Origin: a virus
Virus record (IMG/VR): IMGVR_UViG_3300007344_000143
Coordinates: 1 to 31,002 of that record
Length of the DNA: 31,002 bases
Strand: one strand, 5' to 3'
The notes beneath the pieces are model-generated. The model did not search any database. It was not told the DNA's origin and saw only the letters and a program-made list of their open reading frames with translations. A program made the translations under genes and the position numbers. Below, piece by piece: positions 4,261 through 30,866 of this stretch (its first letter is position 1; every line of letters starts with the position of its first letter).

Positions 4261-4725
4261 ATGAAACGTAAGATAATAAACACAGCGAGCGGGTTAATTA
4301 CCATGGGAATAGCAGCAGGATTATTTGCGACAGCACTAGCACTTCGTCCGGATATAGATCCGGAACAACATAAATGTATGGCTCTTAATATTTACCATGA
4401 AGCACGTGGTGAAGTCTCAGAGGGCCAAATAGCAGTAGCGCAGGTCACTGCTAACCGAGCCAAAGATCAACGTTGGCCAGATACTATTTGCGGTGTGGTA
4501 TATCAGGATAAACAATTCAGTTGGACCCACATGATTAAGGATCATACTCCGACTGATGAAAAGGCTTGGGAAAAGGCCCAGGTTATAGCACGAGACGTTA
4601 TGATAGGAAATGTAGAGGATCCATCGTTTGGGGCAAATCATTACCATGCTAATTGGGTTAATCCAGCTTGGGCGAAGGAAATGAAACTGGTTCGGGTAAT
4701 AGGTTCGCACCTATTCTATGAATAA
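4261..4725 (+). CDS. SleB-type cell-wall hydrolase (endolysin candidate)
   Basis: A 154-residue peptidoglycan hydrolase of the SleB/Hydrolase_2 family, which cleaves murein glycan strands. The core motif IYHEARGEVSEGQIAVAQV at about residues 44-62 followed by ANR is clear, with Glu47 or Glu51 the likely catalytic acid. Residues 9-28 form a weakly hydrophobic Gly/Ala-rich segment (TASGLITMGIAAGLFATALA) that could be a signal-anchor-release segment. That would let the enzyme export through Sec and await holin or membrane depolarisation. It has its own G-run promoter. It is the best endolysin candidate in the window, though the spanins lie 23 kb away. A host-wall remodelling role is the alternative. 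Confidence 0.85.
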   Translation: MKRKIINTASGLITMGIAAGLFATALALRPDIDPEQHKCMALNIYHEARGEVSEGQIAVAQVTANRAKDQRWPDTICGVVYQDKQFSWTHMIKDHTPTDEKAWEKAQVIARDVMIGNVEDPSFGANHYHANWVNPAWAKEMKLVRVIGSHLFYE

Positions 4726-5276: not shown

Positions 5277-5351
5277 GAATATCACCATAGCATACGACGA
5301 GAATTGGAAAGTGATAATTATGTCACGAAGTAAAAATATAGTTTTATGGTA

Positions 5352-5380
5352 TTTACAATTTCTCGGATATGTGATTAAAT
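5352..5380 (+). promoter_or_regulatory. Probable promoter of the tmRNA
   Basis: TTTACA at 5352-5357 with TTAAAT at 5375-5380 after 17 bases. The -10 is weak, but the position, just before the first structured bases of the acceptor piece, fits a tmRNA promoter. The stretch 5277-5351 holds nothing else I can identify. Confidence 0.5.
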
Positions 5381-5384
5381 AAAG

Positions 5385-5655
5385 AAGTAGACGTTATAAA
5401 GGTTATATGGACCTGGGGGCGGTACCCAGCAGCTCCACCAAAAACACACTTCGCCTATCTGCACAATAGGTGTGGTGCAGCACACAACCCTTAGTCGGGC
5501 CAAGAAGGTGTGTTTTTGATGGGGCTGAAATAGGATCGACATGTAGTCCAGTTTACAAAACACAAATGCAAACGATAATTTTGCACCATCTGGATTTGCT
5601 CTAGCAGCATAATCACAGGGGGCGGCCACTGCCTAGCAACAGAAGTGTGGCGAAT
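5385..5655 (+). ncRNA. ssrA: Circularly permuted (two-piece) tmRNA, alphaproteobacterial type
   Basis: The order is permuted: the 3' acceptor part comes first and the 5' coding part second. The acceptor piece has GGAC, T-stem CTGGG/CCCAG around a 7-base loop, then CAGCTCC and ACCA ending at 5440. The coding piece begins GGGGCTG at 5521, which pairs with CAGCTCC to rebuild the 7-bp acceptor stem, and continues with AGGATCGAC, the tmRNA D-like region. ATGTAGTC (5541-5548) pairs with GGTTATAT (5401-5408) as helix P2, allowing G-U pairs. The tag frame starts at GCA 5568 and ends at TAA 5610-5612: ANDNFAPSGFALAA. GCCAC/GTGGC after the stop may be a pseudoknot. The spacer 5441-5520 is closed by AAAACACAC/GTGTGTTTT and should be cut out. 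Outer ends are approximate. It would rescue stalled ribosomes with host SmpB. Confidence 0.93.
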
Positions 5656-5677: not shown

Positions 5678-5908
5678 ATGGAAATTCTAAACAAAGTAAA
5701 AACATGGGCAGGGGCACTAGCAGAAGTCGGTATTAGTATCGCAGCTCTTATGATTGTACTAGAAGTCTTGGGACTTGGTGCAATTCCGTTTCTCCCAACA
5801 GCTAGCGTAATTACTAATGTTAGCGGTATCATCGCGATGTTAGGCGCTCAAGGACTAGTTGGTTTGATCGCAGTTTGGGTTCTATATGAGATTTGGAACA
5901 AAAAGTAA
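5678..5908 (+). CDS. Small two-helix membrane protein (holin-like candidate)
   Basis: A 76-residue hydrophobic protein with two likely membrane helices (about residues 13-34 and 43-70), a short charged N-terminus and a basic end (WNKK). ATG 5678 was chosen because AAAGGA lies 9-15 bases upstream; an earlier in-frame GTG at 5645 would fall inside the tmRNA. Size and topology fit a small holin, but there is no diagnostic motif. It sits 22 bases beyond the tmRNA and 15 bases before the porin-like gene, opening the envelope-directed block. Confidence 0.75.
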   Translation: MEILNKVKTWAGALAEVGISIAALMIVLEVLGLGAIPFLPTASVITNVSGIIAMLGAQGLVGLIAVWVLYEIWNKK

Positions 5909-5923
5909 TAATAGGAAATAATA

Positions 5924-6715
5924 ATGAAAAAGTTACTTATCACATCCGCAATCGCTACATCGTTCGCCGGCGTAGCATTTGCTGAAGACACAACGGCCAG
6001 TGCAGGGCCAACTATTTCTGGCGAAGTCGGTATAACTTTAGCAGAAACTGCAGCCGGCGACATGGCCGGATCTATGGGTCTAGACCTTGGCATCGATGCT
6101 GCAGGTTTGGCTAACATAGACCTAGACTTTAGTGCAACAGATGGCAATGCCGTTGTACTAGATAACTGGACCGTAGGCACATCAGTTGCTGGTATCGGTC
6201 TTTCTATTGGTGACGACAACGGGCTTATGCCCGATGCAGAAGGAAACCAGACACTGGCTAAACCTGCCATGGCAGAGTCAGTGAAAGTGGAAGTAGCTGG
6301 TGCATCAGTAGCGGTAGGATTTACTGATTGGGGTACCGATCTGACAGATCTTAGCAATTTGCAAGGTTCTTACACACTCGGTGTAATGGGCATGGATGTT
6401 ACTGCAGCTCTGGACTACAACTTTGATACCGAAAACACTGTACTTGGTGCAGGTGTTAACGGGTTCGAAGCAGCTGGTTTAGGAGTTGGTGGGGCACTTT
6501 CATATGATATTGATGCAGAGAAACTTGGCTTCGAAACAACTGCGTCAATTATGGGTGCAACAGCTTACTTGAATGGTGATACTGATGAAACACTACAAAA
6601 CATAGGTGGTGAATATGTTTATAATCTTGGCGGAGCAGAAGTAAGCGCTGGCGCCAATTATAATTTTGATGCAGAAGAATTTAAGCCCAGCGTAGGTCTT
6701 ACATTCTCCTTCTAA
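5924..6715 (+). CDS. Phage-encoded porin-like outer-membrane beta-barrel
   Basis: A 263-residue protein with a clean signal peptide (MKKLLITSAIATSFAGVAFA, cleavage expected after residue 20). The mature protein is Gly/Asp-rich with regular alternating strands and ends in a C-terminal phenylalanine (VGLTFSF), the usual BAM recognition signature. There are no cysteines. It resembles small alphaproteobacterial porins. It would sit in the host outer membrane, perhaps altering permeability or replacing a receptor to exclude other phages. It is followed by a terminator, so expression may be limited to this pair of genes and the tmRNA. Porin type and pore size cannot be judged by eye. Confidence 0.82.
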   Translation: MKKLLITSAIATSFAGVAFAEDTTASAGPTISGEVGITLAETAAGDMAGSMGLDLGIDAAGLANIDLDFSATDGNAVVLDNWTVGTSVAGIGLSIGDDNGLMPDAEGNQTLAKPAMAESVKVEVAGASVAVGFTDWGTDLTDLSNLQGSYTLGVMGMDVTAALDYNFDTENTVLGAGVNGFEAAGLGVGGALSYDIDAEKLGFETTASIMGATAYLNGDTDETLQNIGGEYVYNLGGAEVSAGANYNFDAEEFKPSVGLTFSF

Positions 6716-6760
6716 TATTATCATAAATATTATTATCGGGTTGTCACGTAATAGACACGC

Positions 6761-6789
6761 AGGGAGCCACGGTTAGCTCCCTATTTTTT
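6761..6789 (+). terminator. Rho-independent terminator after porin gene
   Basis: AGGGAGC (6761-6767) pairs with GCTCCCT (6776-6782) around an 8-base loop, followed directly by ATTTTTTA. It lies 45 bases beyond the porin stop and before the next ribosome-binding site. Confidence 0.85.
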
Positions 6790-7246: not shown

Positions 7247-7254
7247 TATAAATA
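7247..7254 (+). promoter_or_regulatory. T4-type late promoter (TATAAATA)
   Basis: An exact TATAAATA sits 33 bases before the ATG of the Thr/Asn-repeat gene in a non-coding gap. T4 late transcription uses this box with the phage sigma gp55. Two more exact copies stand at nearly the same distance before genes at 15668 and 16537. Confidence 0.7.
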
Positions 7255-7287: not shown

Positions 7288-8277
7288 ATGAAGAGACTTC
7301 TGTCCGCAGTTCTCTTCGTTATGGCATCATCTGTTGTTCAGGCCCAAGTCGCTAATGACGCAGATGGTAATTTTGATAGTACTAGCTATGTAGAAACAAA
7401 CAATGATAGTACTACAACCACAACTAGCACTGTAACTACTGATAATACGAATACTAATGATACGACGATCACTAGTACAAATACAAATACTAATACAAAC
7501 ACGAATACTAGTACTGTAGATAGTACAACCACTTCGACAAACACGAATACGAATACTAGTACGACAAATAATACAAATACTAATACTAGTACAAATACTA
7601 ATACGAATACTTCGACTATAGATAACACTACCACTAGCACGGTCAATAGCACTTCTGATAATACATCTAGTGTGACTACGGATAACACCAACACAAATAC
7701 TAGTACAAATACCAATACCAATACGAATACTAGTACAAACACCAATACAAATACTAATGTTAATACAAACAATAACACTAGTAATACTACCATGAGTAGT
7801 ACGTCTAGCAATACTAATGCCAATGTAAATCAAAATACATCTACATCAGACGTTACTCAAAAGATTGAATCCCCACCGCCATCAGCAATAGCACCTACCA
7901 TTATGTCAGGTGGTAATGACAACTGTACAGTGACATGGTCTAGTTCTGTGCAAACCCAAATACTTGGGATGAGCGGTGGTGGGCACATAAGAGATATAAA
8001 CTGTGAGAGACTAAAGAACTCTAAAGCTCTTTATAATATGGGTATGAAGGTTGCTGCGGTAGCTTTAATGTGTCAAGATGCAGCGGTATTCAACGCTATG
8101 AGAATGGCTGGCACCCCTTGCCCATTTGATGGTACTATAGGAGACCAAGCACAGGCACTATGGGATGAATTCCCAGAAGAAAAACCTATTCCACAAACAG
8201 AAGAAACTACACCCCATGCTAAAGCAAACACTTTCATCGGTCTTGGTATGCTCTTGGCTCTTCTCGCAATACTCTAG
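7288..8277 (+). CDS. Secreted Thr/Asn-repeat protein with C-terminal hydrophobic tail
   Basis: A 329-residue protein. Residues 1-20 are a signal peptide ending VQA-Q. Residues about 36-190 are almost only Thr, Asn and Ser (runs such as TNTNTNTNT), a flexible and glycosylation-prone stalk. Residues about 205-290 form a compact domain with four cysteines (around NCTVTW, NCERL, MCQDA and GTPCPFDG), probably disulfide-bonded outside the cytoplasm. The last 18 residues are hydrophobic (FIGLGMLLALLAIL), suggesting a membrane anchor. A late promoter lies upstream. I recall similar secreted proteins in marine T4-like phages but know no function. It overlaps the next gene by 62 bases. Confidence 0.8.
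   Translation: MKRLLSAVLFVMASSVVQAQVANDADGNFDSTSYVETNNDSTTTTTSTVTTDNTNTNDTTITSTNTNTNTNTNTSTVDSTTTSTNTNTNTSTTNNTNTNTSTNTNTNTSTIDNTTTSTVNSTSDNTSSVTTDNTNTNTSTNTNTNTNTSTNTNTNTNVNTNNNTSNTTMSSTSSNTNANVNQNTSTSDVTQKIESPPPSAIAPTIMSGGNDNCTVTWSSSVQTQILGMSGGGHIRDINCERLKNSKALYNMGMKVAAVALMCQDAAVFNAMRMAGTPCPFDGTIGDQAQALWDEFPEEKPIPQTEETTPHAKANTFIGLGMLLALLAIL
7400..7840 (+). repeat. Degenerate AAYACN hexamer repeat coding Thr-Asn
   Basis: Within the coding frame the DNA repeats AATACT, AATACA and AATACG units and frequent ACTAGTAC. Third-codon positions vary freely (ACT, ACA, ACG, ACC; AAT, AAC) while the Thr-Asn protein pattern is kept. That points to selection on the protein repeat. The region could expand or contract by slippage or recombination. 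Confidence 0.85.
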
Positions 8278-9979
8278 CGCGCAGGACCTAACCCAACAAG
8301 ATATTGATATGGGAACGCTGTATGCTGCTCCATCGAATCCTGATGATCTGTTGGAATATAATGAACGCACATATATGGAACAGCTGATTGATAATAATGT
8401 TACTGCAACTACGACTGGAGACGGTGGGTTTTTAGGAACGGGATGGTTTGAAAGTGAAAATACAACTTACTCTATAGACTCTTGGACAGCCACAACTGGA
8501 TGTTTAGATCCTTCAGCTTCTAATGGCGGAGATGGATCTTGGGGTGGAACGTCTGGTGGTTCATGTGCTAATATAGGTACTAATGGTGATGGAGCTATTC
8601 GTTTCGGATTTAATAATACAATAGTTTCTCAAACACAAGACATTATAAATGATGCTTTAAAAGTTGCTGGTGTTCAAGTTGTTGGATACTTATGGCAATG
8701 GAAAGTTAAAAATTACAATGCTAATGATACAAGTGCAAATCAAGCCAATAATCAAGACCCATTATATGTAAGAGTCATTGTCAAAGATAATGATGGAAAT
8801 GTCCTTGATGAAAGAGAGTGGGATTACTCATATTCAATAAGTGACTGGGAACAAAAAAATGGAATGCAGTGGTATGATCCTTTTTTAATGGGCGATAAAG
8901 TTGATACACTTACGCTAGAAGTTGAGGGTAAAGATGCTGGTTACTGGGCTGGCTACTGGGGTCCAGAGTTTAGAGAAGCTGGTATCTATTCCATCTTTGT
9001 TTATAAAGAACCATTGGATTGTAGTGATCCTTTGAATGATGCTAGATGCCCTGGATATGCTACGGCACTACAAGAACAACAAGAGGCCATGTTGGCCGAA
9101 CAACTAGCAATGGCGGAGATGACAAATGACACAGGAACAATTGAAGAAGTTAATGAAACTCCACGTACTGAGAAAGTTATTGAAGAATCTCAACCAGGAC
9201 CAGAACCAGTAGTAGAGGTAATAGAAGATGCCATTGAAGAAGTGTTGGAAGAGCCCATAGAAGTTGCTGGCGATCTTGAACCAGATATATTAAATGACAC
9301 TGTGGCGGAAACTGGAACGAGCCCAAGGGTACGGATTAATCCGTTGGATGTGGCTAGAGGCGCTGTTGCTGACGCTGCTGCCGCGGCCAATAATGCCATA
9401 AGCAGTGCTACAACATCATCTATTCAATCAGACCAACAATCCACTAGTTTTGTAATGGAGCAGGCCCAAGAGTCTGCTGAACTATCCTTTGAAATGGAGG
9501 AGCAATTAATAGAGAACGTACAGTCAATTGCTTCTAATGTTTCACAACAACAATTTGCAGCTTTAAATTTAGAAGAGAATGTTTTGCAGTTAGAAATAAT
9601 TGTGGATGATGTAAATGTAGAAACCGCAAATGATATTTTAAATAATATTATAAGTCAAGTAACATCTCCTACATTCGAACTTAAACTACCAGAACCAAAA
9701 GAAGAAATTGCTGAACCTATGAGTACTATGGAAGAAGCCGAGCTGGTAGCAAAGGCATTTGAAGGCAGTGATGATGAAGATGCACGATCCGCACTTTTAG
9801 GATATAACCCATTATTCAGCCAATACCAACAACTTCAAATGGCTGACGCAGATTTTTATAAACCAAAGGAGATTTACCCAAACCAAAAAAATCATGATAA
9901 CCCAAATTCAAGATTCTTTAACGGGGCAAGTGACGAAAAACATAACGCACTAGTAAGGATGCAATACGACAATAGATGA
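8216..9979 (+). CDS. Large secreted hypothetical protein with acidic linker
   Basis: A 587-residue protein. ATG 8216 was chosen because it gives a signal peptide (MLKQTLSSVLVCSWLFSQYS, cleaved near SSA-Q); the longer frame from 8165 would put 17 charged residues in front. The N-terminal domain (to about residue 275) is rich in Gly, Trp and Tyr with four cysteines in its outer parts (GCLDP, GSCAN, LDCSDP, ARCPG). A Glu/Pro/Val-rich linker follows (about 330-370), then an Ala/Gln-rich helical part (380-480) and a charged tail. It shares 62 bases with the previous gene in another frame. The family is unknown to me; I recall similar proteins in marine T4-like phages. Confidence 0.8.
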   Translation: MLKQTLSSVLVCSWLFSQYSSAQDLTQQDIDMGTLYAAPSNPDDLLEYNERTYMEQLIDNNVTATTTGDGGFLGTGWFESENTTYSIDSWTATTGCLDPSASNGGDGSWGGTSGGSCANIGTNGDGAIRFGFNNTIVSQTQDIINDALKVAGVQVVGYLWQWKVKNYNANDTSANQANNQDPLYVRVIVKDNDGNVLDEREWDYSYSISDWEQKNGMQWYDPFLMGDKVDTLTLEVEGKDAGYWAGYWGPEFREAGIYSIFVYKEPLDCSDPLNDARCPGYATALQEQQEAMLAEQLAMAEMTNDTGTIEEVNETPRTEKVIEESQPGPEPVVEVIEDAIEEVLEEPIEVAGDLEPDILNDTVAETGTSPRVRINPLDVARGAVADAAAAANNAISSATTSSIQSDQQSTSFVMEQAQESAELSFEMEEQLIENVQSIASNVSQQQFAALNLEENVLQLEIIVDDVNVETANDILNNIISQVTSPTFELKLPEPKEEIAEPMSTMEEAELVAKAFEGSDDEDARSALLGYNPLFSQYQQLQMADADFYKPKEIYPNQKNHDNPNSRFFNGASDEKHNALVRMQYDNR

Positions 9980-10296
9980 ACTGTCTTTTAGGGTTGGCGC
10001 TGTCACTCCATTTGAATATGGATGACGGCTATAATATGATTCATCCATATGCCACATGTGAGCGAGGTCGTTATAATTACGGATTACTTGTAAATAGTGA
10101 AAAGAAAATAGGTAATTATTTAAGTTGGGATCTAAATGATAACATTGAATTGGGATTTATGACGGGATACACTTCAGCCCACATAGTTCCAATGGCTAGA
10201 TTTAAAGCTGGTAACTTTTTTGCTATGCCGGGGATAGAAGATTATAAGTTAAAGGGTATAGTAGCAGGAATAGAAATACCATTAGGAGAAAGATAA
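9976..10296 (+). CDS. Small hypothetical, possible beta-barrel fragment
   Basis: A 106-residue protein overlapping the previous gene by four bases (ATGA). It has a short hydrophobic start (CLLGLALSLHL) and then strand-like stretches with aromatic residues and glycine turns (IELGFMTGYTSAH, LKGIVAGIEIPLG). This pattern resembles part of a small outer-membrane barrel or an acyltransferase-like protein. There is no clear signal-peptide cleavage site. Function unknown. Translation is coupled to the large secreted protein, so they may act together in the envelope. Confidence 0.65.
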   Translation: MNCLLGLALSLHLNMDDGYNMIHPYATCERGRYNYGLLVNSEKKIGNYLSWDLNDNIELGFMTGYTSAHIVPMARFKAGNFFAMPGIEDYKLKGIVAGIEIPLGER

Positions 10297-15436: not shown

Positions 15437-15635
15437 AACACATAAGGCAGCATTAGGTGACGGTCTGCAGGATATGAAACTAAAAATGTTTTTCAAAGAT
15501 TGCGCAGAGGTCTTAGATGCTGACGGTCAGGAGGATGCCGCCTTTTACTTCCATCAAATTGTAGAACACCTTATGGCTGGTAAGTCCTTACCACATGATA
15601 ATAAAAGAGAGGCGGCTCGTATTCTAGGGGTATAA
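15417..15635 (+). CDS. Small helical hypothetical protein
   Basis: A 72-residue protein with a basic start (NQRRGKTHKAALGDGL) and a helical body (FFKDCAEVLDADGQEDAAFYF). ATG 15417 is chosen because GAGGAGG lies immediately upstream; the frame is open further back but inside the previous gene. No family recognised. Its stop codon is part of the late promoter TATAAATA that serves the phosphate transporter. Confidence 0.68.
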   Translation: MNQRRGKTHKAALGDGLQDMKLKMFFKDCAEVLDADGQEDAAFYFHQIVEHLMAGKSLPHDNKREAARILGV

Positions 15636-15667: not shown

Positions 15668-16141
15668 ATGTCAACTACTAAACTCTGGAAAAAGGTAAAA
15701 AAAATGGACCTAGGAAATCCTGTAATCACCGCCCTTGTAGGGTTGGTGATTTTTTATATTGGCCTCAAAACATTCTCGGGAGGTATGAAGTCGATGGGTA
15801 ATATGGACCACCTTCAGTTCTTTTTAGGTAATCCAATTTATATGTTCGTCGGCGGAATAGTCATGACTCTTTTGTGGCAATCCTCCTCTCTTTCAACTAC
15901 AGCTATTATTGCATTAGTTGCATCTGGGGCTTTACCTCTTCCAGCTGCAGTTGCAGCAGTTCTAGGGGCTAATATTGGTACCACGGGTACGATATGGCTA
16001 GCTGGCTTTTTTGTTTCAGACGGATGGCCTAGAGGTGATACCCTTCGAATAGCTATGGCACATACTGGAATGAATTTAATAATGGCATTGATGCTTCTAC
16101 CATTTGTTGGGCATATAGCAAAATATCTTTATAAATTTTAA
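15668..16141 (+). CDS. Half-size Na+/phosphate cotransporter (NptA/PF02690-like)
   Basis: A 157-residue membrane protein that contains one copy of the repeat found twice in Na+/Pi cotransporters. QSSS at residues 71-74 is followed by LSTTAIIALVASG, then GANIGTTGT at 100-108 and AHTGMN at 131-136. About four hydrophobic segments are seen (near 19-37, 57-70, 77-99, 126-148). Cellular family members have two such repeats plus a PhoU-like domain and run to about 500 residues or more. This phage form could work as a dimer, with each chain giving one half. It would bring phosphate into the infected cell to support DNA synthesis in phosphate-poor water. It has a T4-type late promoter. Confidence 0.85.
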   Translation: MSTTKLWKKVKKMDLGNPVITALVGLVIFYIGLKTFSGGMKSMGNMDHLQFFLGNPIYMFVGGIVMTLLWQSSSLSTTAIIALVASGALPLPAAVAAVLGANIGTTGTIWLAGFFVSDGWPRGDTLRIAMAHTGMNLIMALMLLPFVGHIAKYLYKF

Positions 16142-27366: not shown

Positions 27367-27767
27367 AACGGAAATGGACCAGAGGCGGACCTGACGGAGA
27401 GATCCATACCCAACATAAAGGTGAGACTTGGAGAGTTCGTAAAAACTACGACCACAATGATCGTCACACAGGTGAGTATAGAATCGAAGTTAAAAAGAAG
27501 AATGCCTACAGTGGTCACGACTGGCACTGGCATGATACAGTCCACGGTAAAGAGAATGCTAAATCCAGATTACCTGAGGACGTCCAAGAAGAAATGACGA
27601 CCACAGCTGATGCTGGAATTCCACATGACACTAGAGATATGGGTCCAATGCTACCGAAACACATTCTAAGACGTCGTCTAGGTATACCAATAAATATGAC
27701 TGATCGCAGACGTAAGAAAAATCGTCCGCCAGTTTTGCTGAAAAGGTTTAGTAAATACAATGGCTAA
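27363..27767 (+). CDS. Hypothetical basic protein with conserved phage C-terminus
   Basis: A 134-residue His/Arg/Lys-rich protein. The middle has many His and Trp (YSGHDWHWHDTVHGKENAKS). The later segment EEMTTTADAGIPHDTRDMGP is one I recall at the ends of phage structural proteins and resembles a protease-processed linker. It overlaps genes on both sides by a few bases (ATGA, and 8 bases with the spanin). Function unknown; a virion role is probable. Confidence 0.68.
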   Translation: MKRKWTRGGPDGEIHTQHKGETWRVRKNYDHNDRHTGEYRIEVKKKNAYSGHDWHWHDTVHGKENAKSRLPEDVQEEMTTTADAGIPHDTRDMGPMLPKHILRRRLGIPINMTDRRRKKNRPPVLLKRFSKYNG

Positions 27768-28209
27768 GCTATATTTAATTATCATTGTTGCAGGCTTATT
27801 GTCCAGTGTTGGATACGGTGGATACCAGTATTATCTTTGGTCTGAAGCTACCATAAGTACTTTAAGAGAAAACAATGTTAAGCTAAAATCCGCTGCCGAA
27901 ACATTACAGAACACTGTAGAGAAAATGGCAGCCGATGCGAAAAAGAACGAACAATTAAATAAAGACCTTACTAAAAGGTTACAACAATCCCAAGAACATC
28001 TTGATAAGCTAAGAGGTGTTTTTGCAAAAATCGATTTGACTATGGAGGCATTAACGAATGCACAAGGACTTGAAGACAGAGTTAACAACGCCGTTAACAA
28101 ACTTATTGGGCGGATCCAAGATGAAACTACTCCTCCTTCTGACAAGCCCGATACTACTGATGGGGTGTCTGGGGAGAACACCGGAACCGGAAGTAGTAGT
28201 AACAACTGA
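27760..28209 (+). CDS. Inner-membrane spanin (Rz-like)
   Basis: A 149-residue protein with one N-terminal membrane helix (about residues 4-25, IIIVAGLLSSVGYGGYQYYL) and a periplasmic coiled coil (30-110, with long Leu/Asn/Lys heptads), ending in a Ser/Thr/Gly-rich tail. This is the layout of an i-spanin. Its last 89 bases overlap the start of a lipoprotein gene in another frame, a hallmark of Rz/Rz1 pairs. Together they fuse inner and outer membranes in the last step of lysis. No sequence motif defines spanins, so the call rests on topology and overlap. Confidence 0.8.
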   Translation: MAKLYLIIIVAGLLSSVGYGGYQYYLWSEATISTLRENNVKLKSAAETLQNTVEKMAADAKKNEQLNKDLTKRLQQSQEHLDKLRGVFAKIDLTMEALTNAQGLEDRVNNAVNKLIGRIQDETTPPSDKPDTTDGVSGENTGTGSSSNN

Positions 28210-28504
28210 ATATCAGGAACAAAATATTCCTATTCAGGAACGGCCTAAAGCTGTAGAGTTTCCTCCAGTCGATTGGTTTGTAATTACAGAAGAAAATCTA
28301 GAAGAGAAACTGGCTGAGATTCAATCTAAGACTGGAAATGTGGTTATGTTTACCATTACCCCGAAGGGTTATGAGAATCTAGCCATTGGTATAGCAGATC
28401 TTCGCCGGTATGTGAAAGACCAACAAGCAATAATTGCATACTATGAAGAAGCGCTTACACCGGATAAACCGAAGGATGATCCATCCACCTCGGAAAATCA
28501 GTAG
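28121..28504 (+). CDS. Outer-membrane lipoprotein spanin (Rz1-like)
   Basis: A 127-residue protein with a lipoprotein signal (MKLLLLLTSPILLMGC, lipid cysteine at residue 16). A Pro/Glu-rich linker (RTPEPEVVV to ERPKAVEFPPV) follows, then a compact domain with VITEENLEEKLAEI and YENLAIGIADLRRYVKDQQA. ATG 28121 was chosen because it creates the lipobox; the frame is open earlier but without one. It is embedded in the 3' end of the i-spanin gene in a different frame. I recall the ENLEE...YENLA...LRRY pattern in marine T4-like phages. It is longer than classical Rz1 (about 60 residues). Proposed outer half of the spanin complex. Confidence 0.8.
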   Translation: MKLLLLLTSPILLMGCLGRTPEPEVVVTTEYQEQNIPIQERPKAVEFPPVDWFVITEENLEEKLAEIQSKTGNVVMFTITPKGYENLAIGIADLRRYVKDQQAIIAYYEEALTPDKPKDDPSTSENQ

Positions 28505-28558: not shown

Positions 28559-28637
28559 AAATCACAATAATCATATATAATGTATTTAAGTCAGTAACAA
28601 CTGCCATATGTCGTTTATGGCCAGAAAGGATTTATCG

Positions 28638-30866
28638 ATGTTCAAACTCATTCCTAATAACCCTGATAAAAATACTAGGAAGTTAATGTCAGAAACTAAA
28701 TTTTATGAAGGATATAGCAGATGGAGTGAGGATAAGAACAGATATGAGACATGGGAAGAATCTGTAGCCCGTGTCATGGACATGCACCGTGAATATTATG
28801 CTGACAAAATGACCCCAGAGCTTGCCCAGTATATCGATGAGGCAGAATCTCTGTATAAGCTGCAGTATGCACTAGGCGCTCAGAGAGCGCTGCAATTTGG
28901 CGGAGAGCAGTTACGTAAGCACCAGATGAGAATGTATAACTGTACGAGCTCCTACGCGGACCGTGCGGCCTTTTTTGGTGAGCTTTTCTATATTTTATTA
29001 TGTGGTGCGGGTGCCGGTTTCAGTGTACAAAATCATCATGTTGCAAAACTTCCTAATGTTGCAGAGCGTAAGAAACAAGCCAAAGGTTATGTGATTGAAG
29101 ATTCCATTGAAGGCTGGGCGGATTCTCTTTCAGTCCTTATGTCTTCTTTTTTTGTGGGCGGCGGTACGCATCCTGACTTCGAAGGTCGCAAGGTTTACTT
29201 CGATCTGCAAAACATCCGTCCAAAAGGTTCAAAAATCTCTGGCGGATTTAAAGCACCAGGTCCAGAACCACTTCGTCGTGCGCTAGATAAAATTGAGCAT
29301 ATGCTTCAAGGAATCGTATTATCTGGGCGTGACAGATTGAAGCCTATTGAAGTGTATGACATTGCAATGCATGCAGCAGATGCCGTGCTAGCTGGTGGTG
29401 TTCGTCGTTCTGCAACCATTTGTTTATTTAGTGCAGATGACGAAGAAATGATTAATGCTAAAACCGGTAATTGGTTTGTTGATAACCCACAACGTGGACG
29501 TAGTAATAACTCTGCAGTGATTGTTCGTGACGAGATCTCTCGGGATCAATTTAGAACTATAATGCAATCAATTAAAGAATTTGGTGAGCCTGGATTTTAT
29601 TTTGTTGACGATAAGGACTTTACTACGAATCCATGTGTTGAGATTGGTATGTATCCACAAATCGATGGAGAGTCTGGTTGGCAAGGTTGTAACCTGACAG
29701 AAATCAATGGCGGTAAATGTACGAGCACCTCTGAGTTCTTTAAAGCCTGCCGGGCAGCATCCATTATGGGTACACTCCAAGCAGGATATACAGACTTTAA
29801 ATATCTAAGTCCCACCAGTAAAAAAATATTTGACCGTGAAGCCCTGTTAGGTGTATCAATTACTGGGTGGATGAATAACCCGGACATTCTGTTAGATGAC
29901 CAGGTTCAAAGAGAAGGCGCTCGCATTGTTAAATCGGTTAATGAAGAAGTTTCTGCCCTTATCGGTATCAATCCGGCAGCACGGACAACATGTGTTAAAC
30001 CATCTGGCAATGCGTCAGTACTACTTCAAACAGCTAGTGGTATTCATGCTGAGCATTCTGCCCGGTATCTACGTCACGTCCAGTTAAATAAAGAATCAGA
30101 GGTTGCACAACTAATCGCTACTTCAAATCCATATATGGTCGAGGAATCAGTGTGGTCTGCGTCTAATACAGATTACTGTGTAGCTTTCCCAGTTATCTCA
30201 CCAGAAGGATCTTTTTATAAAGAAGATCTATATGGTACAGCTCTATTAGAAAAAGTAAAAATGGTTCAACAGAATTGGGTCGAGGAAGGTACTAATCCAG
30301 ACAGATGCGCGGACCCGCGCGTGCGACATAACGTTTCAAATACTGTAACAGTTCAACCTCACATGTGGGGACAGGTAGAGGATTATGTATATGACAACCG
30401 CCACAGCTTTGCTGGTATTAGTTTCTTGGCTGGTTCGGGTGATAAGGACTTTGCTCAAGCCCCAATGACAGAAATCATGACTGAAGACCAAATCGTCGAT
30501 AAATACGGTAAAGCAGCTCTCTTTGCTTCTGGTCTTATTGTTGATACACGTAAATCCGGTTTCAGGGATCTATGGGACGCTTGTTCGGTTGCTCAAATGG
30601 ATGAACAATATCGTGGAGAGGTTTCTGATATTAATAAGGAATGGATTCGTCGTTTCAAGAAGTTCGCTGATAACTATTTTATGGGTGATATGAAAGAAAC
30701 GGAGTATTGTTTGAAGGACGTATTCCTATTACATAAATGGACTAAGATCCAACAGAACTTTGCCGCAGTAGATTTTGTGACCCAGCTGAGTGAAAAGAGG
30801 TTTACTGATATTGATACGATGGGCGCAACAGCATGTCAAGGTGGTGCCTGTGAAATCGCATTCTAA
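28638..30866 (+). CDS. nrdJ: Class II (adenosylcobalamin-dependent) ribonucleotide reductase
   Basis: A 742-residue enzyme of the monomeric class II RNR type, which reduces ribonucleotides to deoxyribonucleotides using coenzyme B12. Key cysteines are visible: MYNCTSS (Cys102), NPCVEIG (Cys333 with Glu335 at the active site), GCNLTEI (Cys351), and the tail pair ACQGGAC that recharges the disulfide. The Gly-rich LCGAGAGFSV and PSGNASVLLQ stretches are also typical. Length fits the family. ATG 28638 is preferred because AGAAAGGA lies 8 bases upstream; in-frame ATGs at 28608 and 28617 are alternatives. It has no small subunit neighbour, as expected for class II. It supplies dNTPs in step with ThyX. 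Confidence 0.93.
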   Translation: MFKLIPNNPDKNTRKLMSETKFYEGYSRWSEDKNRYETWEESVARVMDMHREYYADKMTPELAQYIDEAESLYKLQYALGAQRALQFGGEQLRKHQMRMYNCTSSYADRAAFFGELFYILLCGAGAGFSVQNHHVAKLPNVAERKKQAKGYVIEDSIEGWADSLSVLMSSFFVGGGTHPDFEGRKVYFDLQNIRPKGSKISGGFKAPGPEPLRRALDKIEHMLQGIVLSGRDRLKPIEVYDIAMHAADAVLAGGVRRSATICLFSADDEEMINAKTGNWFVDNPQRGRSNNSAVIVRDEISRDQFRTIMQSIKEFGEPGFYFVDDKDFTTNPCVEIGMYPQIDGESGWQGCNLTEINGGKCTSTSEFFKACRAASIMGTLQAGYTDFKYLSPTSKKIFDREALLGVSITGWMNNPDILLDDQVQREGARIVKSVNEEVSALIGINPAARTTCVKPSGNASVLLQTASGIHAEHSARYLRHVQLNKESEVAQLIATSNPYMVEESVWSASNTDYCVAFPVISPEGSFYKEDLYGTALLEKVKMVQQNWVEEGTNPDRCADPRVRHNVSNTVTVQPHMWGQVEDYVYDNRHSFAGISFLAGSGDKDFAQAPMTEIMTEDQIVDKYGKAALFASGLIVDTRKSGFRDLWDACSVAQMDEQYRGEVSDINKEWIRRFKKFADNYFMGDMKETEYCLKDVFLLHKWTKIQQNFAAVDFVTQLSEKRFTDIDTMGATACQGGACEIAF

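Follow-up and report, generated by a model that had tools for sequence, protein, structure and literature searches.

The 31,002-nt window, the whole stretch of viral DNA analyzed here (IMG/VR virus record IMGVR_UViG_3300007344_000143, positions 1 to 31,002), encodes a porin by fold, whose 263-aa sequence founds what appears to be an undescribed family. Computational analysis showed its fold, family, charge, loop lengths and gene layout; the predicted general-porin fold is well supported, the barrel is strongly acidic, and nearly all of its surface loops are very short. We tentatively propose that the protein raises the permeability of the host outer membrane during infection.

A phage gene for a predicted 16-strand porin

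The first-pass annotation had described a phage-encoded porin on the plus strand at 5924-6715, and its position and frame were exactly confirmed. The features of the gene are as follows.

5924..6715, plus strand: phage porin gene, 263 aa, ATG to TAA, predicted 16-strand general-porin fold
5924..5983, plus strand: signal peptide, residues 1-20, with predicted cleavage after AFA (sequence, low pLDDT of residues 1-24, A18/A20 conservation)
6011..6709, plus strand: barrel, residues 30-262, 16 strands (AlphaFold2 model)
6212..6274, plus strand: L3-like loop, residues 97-117 (DDNGLMPDAEGNQTLAKPAMA), between strands 5 and 6 (model, alignment conservation)
6689..6712, plus strand: C-terminal strand SVGLTFSF (sequence; 90/90 members end in F)

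A ribosome-binding site, AGGAAA, lies 5' of the ATG, and the ORF starts with the N-terminal signal MKKLLITSAIATSFAGVAFA followed by ED and ends with FSF. The signal peptide claimed by the earlier annotation was borne out by this sequence, by the low pLDDT of residues 1-24 and by the conservation of A18 and A20 among 81 aligned relatives; the claimed terminal Phe was likewise present here and in all 90 complete family members. The BAM β-signal follows the general pattern polar-x-Gly-x-x-aromatic-x-aromatic, which SVGLTFSF fits.

Next, the structure of the monomer was predicted by AlphaFold2 with 44 family members. The strand-rich body, for which a barrel of 12-16 strands had been expected, was modeled with 16 strands (pLDDT 82.6, pTM 0.72), and pLDDT was below 50 only in the signal peptide region and at residues 105-111. 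The antiparallel strands are connected by short periplasmic turns (six of 2 residues and one of 5), and the match to closed porins over the full length indicates a closed barrel. Strand residues alternate between inward G/S/T/N/D/E and outward L/V/A/I/Y/F. The constriction loop L3 of general porins lies between strands 5 and 6. At this position the model shows a longer, conserved loop of 21 aa.

A Foldseek search against the PDB ranked the porin of Rhodopseudomonas (Rh.) blastica first (E 3e-8), and V. cholerae OmpU and enterobacterial OmpC/OmpF were also retrieved. VIA-align, whose stated background is Z = 7-8, gave Z 20.1 for OmpU over 228 residues (rmsd 2.7) and Z ~19 each for OmpC, OmpF and PorB. 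A model of the distant member L020 (34-36% identity), built from 8 sequences, again showed 16 strands (pLDDT 73.3) and matched the Rh. blastica porin with Z 19.8 over 237/289 residues. The fold and these concordant matches therefore uphold the original identification as a phage-encoded porin.

Sequence family and its distribution

A first scan of IMG/VR returned 19 relatives of the porin, and two alignment-based scans returned 118 and 198 matching stretches. The porin gene was located at 153 IMG/VR loci from uncultured marine phage sequences, a set in which a few entries are one contig counted twice. The 90 distinct complete proteins read from the loci are 250-272 aa long, and identity to the window porin drops to 32% among the relatives. 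Because the frame is kept in the 153 loci down to this identity and 90/90 proteins end in F, the ORF is far beyond chance. The gene was single copy in all 22 of the larger related phage contigs.

No relative was found among the cultured phages of INPHARED by tblastn with three family members as queries, nor among 84,980 cellular genomes in two scans keyed on short conserved peptides, which distant homologues could escape. Plasmids gave chance matches only, and the PDB gave one chance match by sequence and none by profile. Searches of the porin against Pfam, PHROGs, NCBIfam and PDB sequences yielded nothing above threshold; the PHROG families gave no match at E<=1, and PF13609 (Porin_4) matched nothing in the window at E<=10. 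When 81 members were compared with Pfam, no porin family (Porin_4, Porin_1 and others) was widely matched at the gathering score, and the best weak matches were to OMP_b-brl (E 0.00076) and DcaP (E 0.0018), with one member each. The VDAC/eukaryotic porin family (Porin_3) was rejected (E 0.023, 14.6 of 28.4 bits, 16 strands vs 19).

Homology to host porins, which the earlier annotation had suggested as a check, was thus undetectable by sequence or profile. Alphaproteobacterial porins (Rh. blastica 1prn/5prn; Porin_4/PF13609 type) have 16 strands, an L3-type loop and a C-terminal Phe in common with the phage protein, but identity is ~14%, and the phage porin is shorter, has almost no surface loops and contains 0 Arg and 4 Lys. 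With hhalign, the signal peptide alone aligned between the family and either OmpF or a Cereibacter porin, the latter having a similar signal peptide (43% over 21 residues). A Rhodobacter capsulatus porin sequence, used solely as a probe, retrieved one annotated Cereibacter plasmid porin and no phage. Gammaproteobacterial OmpF, OmpC, PhoE and OmpU similarly have the fold and C-terminal Phe in common with the phage porin, but are ~80-100 residues longer, with long surface loops. Since sequence homology to real porins was undetectable, we describe the protein as a porin by fold and not as a member of a known sequence family.

The phage porins known so far are mostly host-like genes on enterobacterial prophages. 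The lambdoid prophage porins Lc of phage PA-2 and NmpC are reportedly close relatives of OmpC on temperate enterobacterial phages. They resemble the present case in that a phage carries a porin gene; unlike them, the present porins form a separate family in which no cellular relative was found, on T4-like and jumbo-related marine myoviruses. Two phage proteins in BFVD annotated as OmpC/porin, A0A6J5L4P1 and A0A345MNG1, are also predicted barrels (Foldseek E 9e-5 and 7e-7), but they are 420 and 375 aa long with 9-10% identity and belong to another sequence family. Nothing relevant on a phage-encoded porin was found in the open-access papers searched.

The window helicase shares 69% identity with its counterpart in Phage C48C1, which is assigned to Kyanoviridae; thus, the window is probably T4-like. 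No porin is present at the corresponding place in C48C1, the nearest cultured phage by helicase, where an ORF resembles, by eye, the iron-sulphur protein of succinate dehydrogenase. Among the relatives, L137, a 183-kb contig, carries T4 gp23 and portal genes, and the terminase of L133, of 133 kb, is closest (57%) to those of jumbo phages PA5oct and Paride, with Sinorhizobium phage Phosso at 54%. The T4-type genes of the former and the jumbo-like terminase of the latter therefore indicate that the porin occurs in two or more lineages of myoviruses.

Short surface loops and acidic charge

Loops were assigned by placing the N-terminus and the short turns in the periplasm, after known porins. In the model, seven of the eight surface loops comprise 3-6 residues (L1 5, L2 5, L4 3, L5 5, L6 4, L7 6 and L8 4, with 21 in L3), so that the barrel is nearly bald. 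Outside L3, the loops contain on average 29% acidic residues.

The mature porin has 22 D and 15 E (37 D/E), 4 K and 0 R, giving a net charge of -33, compared to -12 for OmpF and -10 for PhoE. Calculated pI was 4.05-4.17 across all 90 members; 30 of them are without Arg, and Cys is absent family-wide. General porins typically have a basic cluster on the barrel wall facing an acidic L3; with 0 Arg and 4 Lys, the phage protein departs from this pattern, although its fold is that of a porin.

The acidic lumen and rim predict a preference for cations, which counts against phosphate import. A phosphate-selective porin of the PhoE/OprP type, having a basic, anion-attracting pore, was rejected on the net charge (-33 vs -10 for PhoE) and on the number of K+R (4 vs 35). 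The first-pass annotation had matched the porin with a phosphate transporter at 15668. The short Na/Pi-cotransporter domain there (15668-16141, 157 aa) is real, but the proposed match was unsupported, since the two genes are 9 kb apart, the transporter lies behind its own TATAAATA at 15631, and the porin carries a net charge of -33.

tmRNA, terminator and late-promoter leader

The porin gene is flanked by the following features.

5349..5655, plus strand: permuted two-piece alphaproteobacterial tmRNA (ssrA), directly upstream of the porin (Rfam RF01849, E 3.7e-21; RF04321)
5678..5908, plus strand: 76-aa membrane-protein ORF separating ssrA from the porin gene (two hydrophobic stretches, judged by eye; no family match)
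6761..6782, plus strand: terminator-like hairpin and T run after the porin (sequence)

ARAGORN did not detect the tmRNA at 5349-5655. A profile built from it was applied to 99 unique-porin loci, and a same-strand tmRNA was found upstream of the porin in 84 of them: at <=150 nt in 32, at <=600 nt in 20 more, and farther away within 10 kb in another 32. Thus, 52/99 loci have the tmRNA within 600 nt, and in many the porin ATG is merely 25-45 nt past it. In a quick tree of the porins with a midpoint root, ssrA-adjacent members fell on both sides of the deepest split, and ~20 changes of leader state were counted; the adjacency accordingly looks old and often broken. From the layout, we infer that the window porin is co-transcribed with the phage tmRNA.

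The tmRNA type suggests an alphaproteobacterial host. Such a tmRNA can also occur in a phage of a host from another class, as described for Melnitz (PMC9004378).

Terminator-like hairpins followed the porin in 69/86 loci, compared to 19/300 control genes. In the window, the hairpin at 6761 may instead serve the next gene, because it is located after CATAAATA at 6722 and before that gene.

The T4-type late promoter core is TATAAATA. It was present <=200 nt upstream of the porin in 23/86 loci, compared to ~2.7 predicted from how often it occurs across these loci. Among 151 distinct TATAAATA contexts, 14 were followed by a strong hairpin, the porin accounting for 12 of them; the counts are descriptive, since related loci are not independent. 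In L013, L024, L035, L041, L057 and others, TATAAATA precedes a perfectly paired hairpin of 10-12 bp whose loop varies, 30-100 nt 5' of the porin ATG and almost exclusively at this gene. The typical leader reads ttataaataaaacagtg[AAAGGGCAAG-CGTCGAA-CTTGCCCTTT], followed by a ribosome-binding site. No late-promoter core or hairpin leader was found upstream of the window porin itself. A 5' stem-loop stabilizes mRNAs such as that of ompA, and by analogy the stem-loop of the porin leader may act as an mRNA stabilizer. The terminator in 69/86 loci and the 12/14 hairpin contexts at the porin indicate that the gene behaves as a dedicated unit.

Proposed function and alternatives

From the features above we infer the localization, pore activity, selectivity and benefit of the porin. 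Our leading reading, to which we give slightly less than an even chance, is that of an anionic pore assembled by host Sec and BAM, which would let small neutral and cationic solutes cross the outer membrane more readily. The gene would be transcribed with the phage tmRNA in the window, and many relatives would use a late promoter and a 5' stem-loop; host Sec would export the product, and host BAM would insert it into the outer membrane. Because the lumen and rim are strongly acidic and surface loops nearly absent, an open, cation-preferring diffusion pore is predicted. It would enhance the uptake of, for example, amino acids, ammonium, polyamines and divalent metals, with a benefit during virion building in an oligotrophic, probably alphaproteobacterial, marine host. 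Against import, late expression is less obviously useful than early expression, and a pore that prefers cations would bring no obvious gain because seawater is rich in them. Furthermore, the bald loops fit receptor avoidance equally well.

Porin loops are the usual binding sites of phages. A loop-less porin might therefore serve superinfection exclusion or progeny protection by replacing or diluting the host receptor porins or by poisoning host porin trimers, such that rival phages fail to adsorb and newly released virions of the phage itself escape capture by cell debris. In phage PA-2, porin Lc is said to replace OmpC, and T5 Llp is a further reported precedent. The seven loops of 3-6 residues point in this direction, as do the ~100 OmpC residues without a counterpart in the phage porin (243/346 aligned), and late expression would suit the protection of progeny at lysis; the PagP-like cluster with a member at 9976-10296 also suggests a broader remodeling of the outer membrane. 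However, a new porin leaves the old receptors in place within one lytic cycle, and exclusion systems usually act early. Moreover, the loops and L3 are about as conserved as the strands (entropy 1.8 vs 1.7 bits) and not diversified. On the whole, we regard exclusion as the main rival of the permeability pore, though less probable than it.

An aid to lysis, in which a late porin would ease release by causing leakiness or osmotic fragility of the outer membrane, is improbable. The late promoters of many relatives and an endolysin gene near the porin in the window (4261-4725) are consistent with it, but the window already has this endolysin and an Rz/Rz1-like spanin pair, and the conservation of L3, the putative constriction loop, is unlike a lytic pore. 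Finally, a virion or other non-porin β-barrel protein, such as a tail or adhesin part that is merely porin-like, would agree with the lack of sequence homology to characterized porins but is highly improbable given the signal peptide, the F end of 90/90 members, the amphipathic strands and the full-length porin match, whose Z greatly exceeds the 7-8 background.

Returning to the anionic permeability pore, a wider reading is conceivable but less likely than not, namely that virus-only bald anionic porins have become a regular component of infection in two lineages of marine myoviruses, the T4-like and the jumbo-related. Their expression would occur either in one unit with ssrA or from a late promoter devoted to the porin, with a stabilizing 5' stem-loop. 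If so, remodeling of outer-membrane permeability would be a core phage strategy and not an incidentally captured host gene. A diverse, single-copy, unannotated family spread over uncultured marine phages, physically linked to the phage tmRNA and equipped with a leader architecture of its own, would be evidence that ocean bacteria have their outer membranes altered by lytic phages. The protein itself would be an unusually small natural 16-strand porin whose channel can be tested, and a possible means of probing nutrient uptake or superinfection in cells under infection.

Neighboring genes

Genes near the porin in the relatives include those for plastocyanin/azurin-like and DoxX-like proteins, heme oxygenase, bilin reductase and CsgF-CsgG. 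CsgF and CsgG are encoded 1.5-9 kb downstream of the porin in eight relatives, L020 (5116-6878), L027, L029, L035, L037, L044, L053 and L133, and in 7/8 of these loci a possible curlin-repeat gene accompanies them (by eye; no Pfam match). Published phage curli clusters are stated to be without CsgA/CsgB. Pelagimyophages and Melnitz, which also carries an ssrA gene (PMC9004378), encode CsgG/CsgF curli pores (PMC7029224, PMC9004378), and the word porin is absent from both reports. The likeness is that outer-membrane pore genes occur on marine T4-like phages; CsgG, however, is an oligomeric secretion pore, whereas the phage porin is a predicted 16-strand monomer barrel.

A PcyX-type cassette of heme oxygenase and ferredoxin-dependent bilin reductase was found near the porin at 23-25 distinct loci, and immediately 3' of it in L110, L111 and L145. 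An exported copper protein of the plastocyanin/azurin family is encoded upstream of the porin in L014 (8975-9406) and at ~22 more distinct loci.

Within the window, 7288-8277 encodes a secreted protein with long N/T-rich repeats that matches phrog_20531 (unknown function) and is preceded by TATAAATA at 7247; its relative comes after the porin in L028, L119 and L137. The 106-aa protein at 9976-10296 falls in a cluster with members matching the PHROG of PagP, a lipid A acylation protein, and a role in outer-membrane modification is possible. A class 3 lipase is encoded on the phage at 11001-11729 (PF01764, E 9e-24). Overlapping Rz-like and Rz1-like spanin genes occupy 27760-28504 (starts 27760 and 28118). 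An adenosylcobalamin-dependent (class II) ribonucleotide reductase is encoded at 28608-30866, and its nearest cultured counterpart is that of Rhizobium phage RHph_I1_18 (66%).
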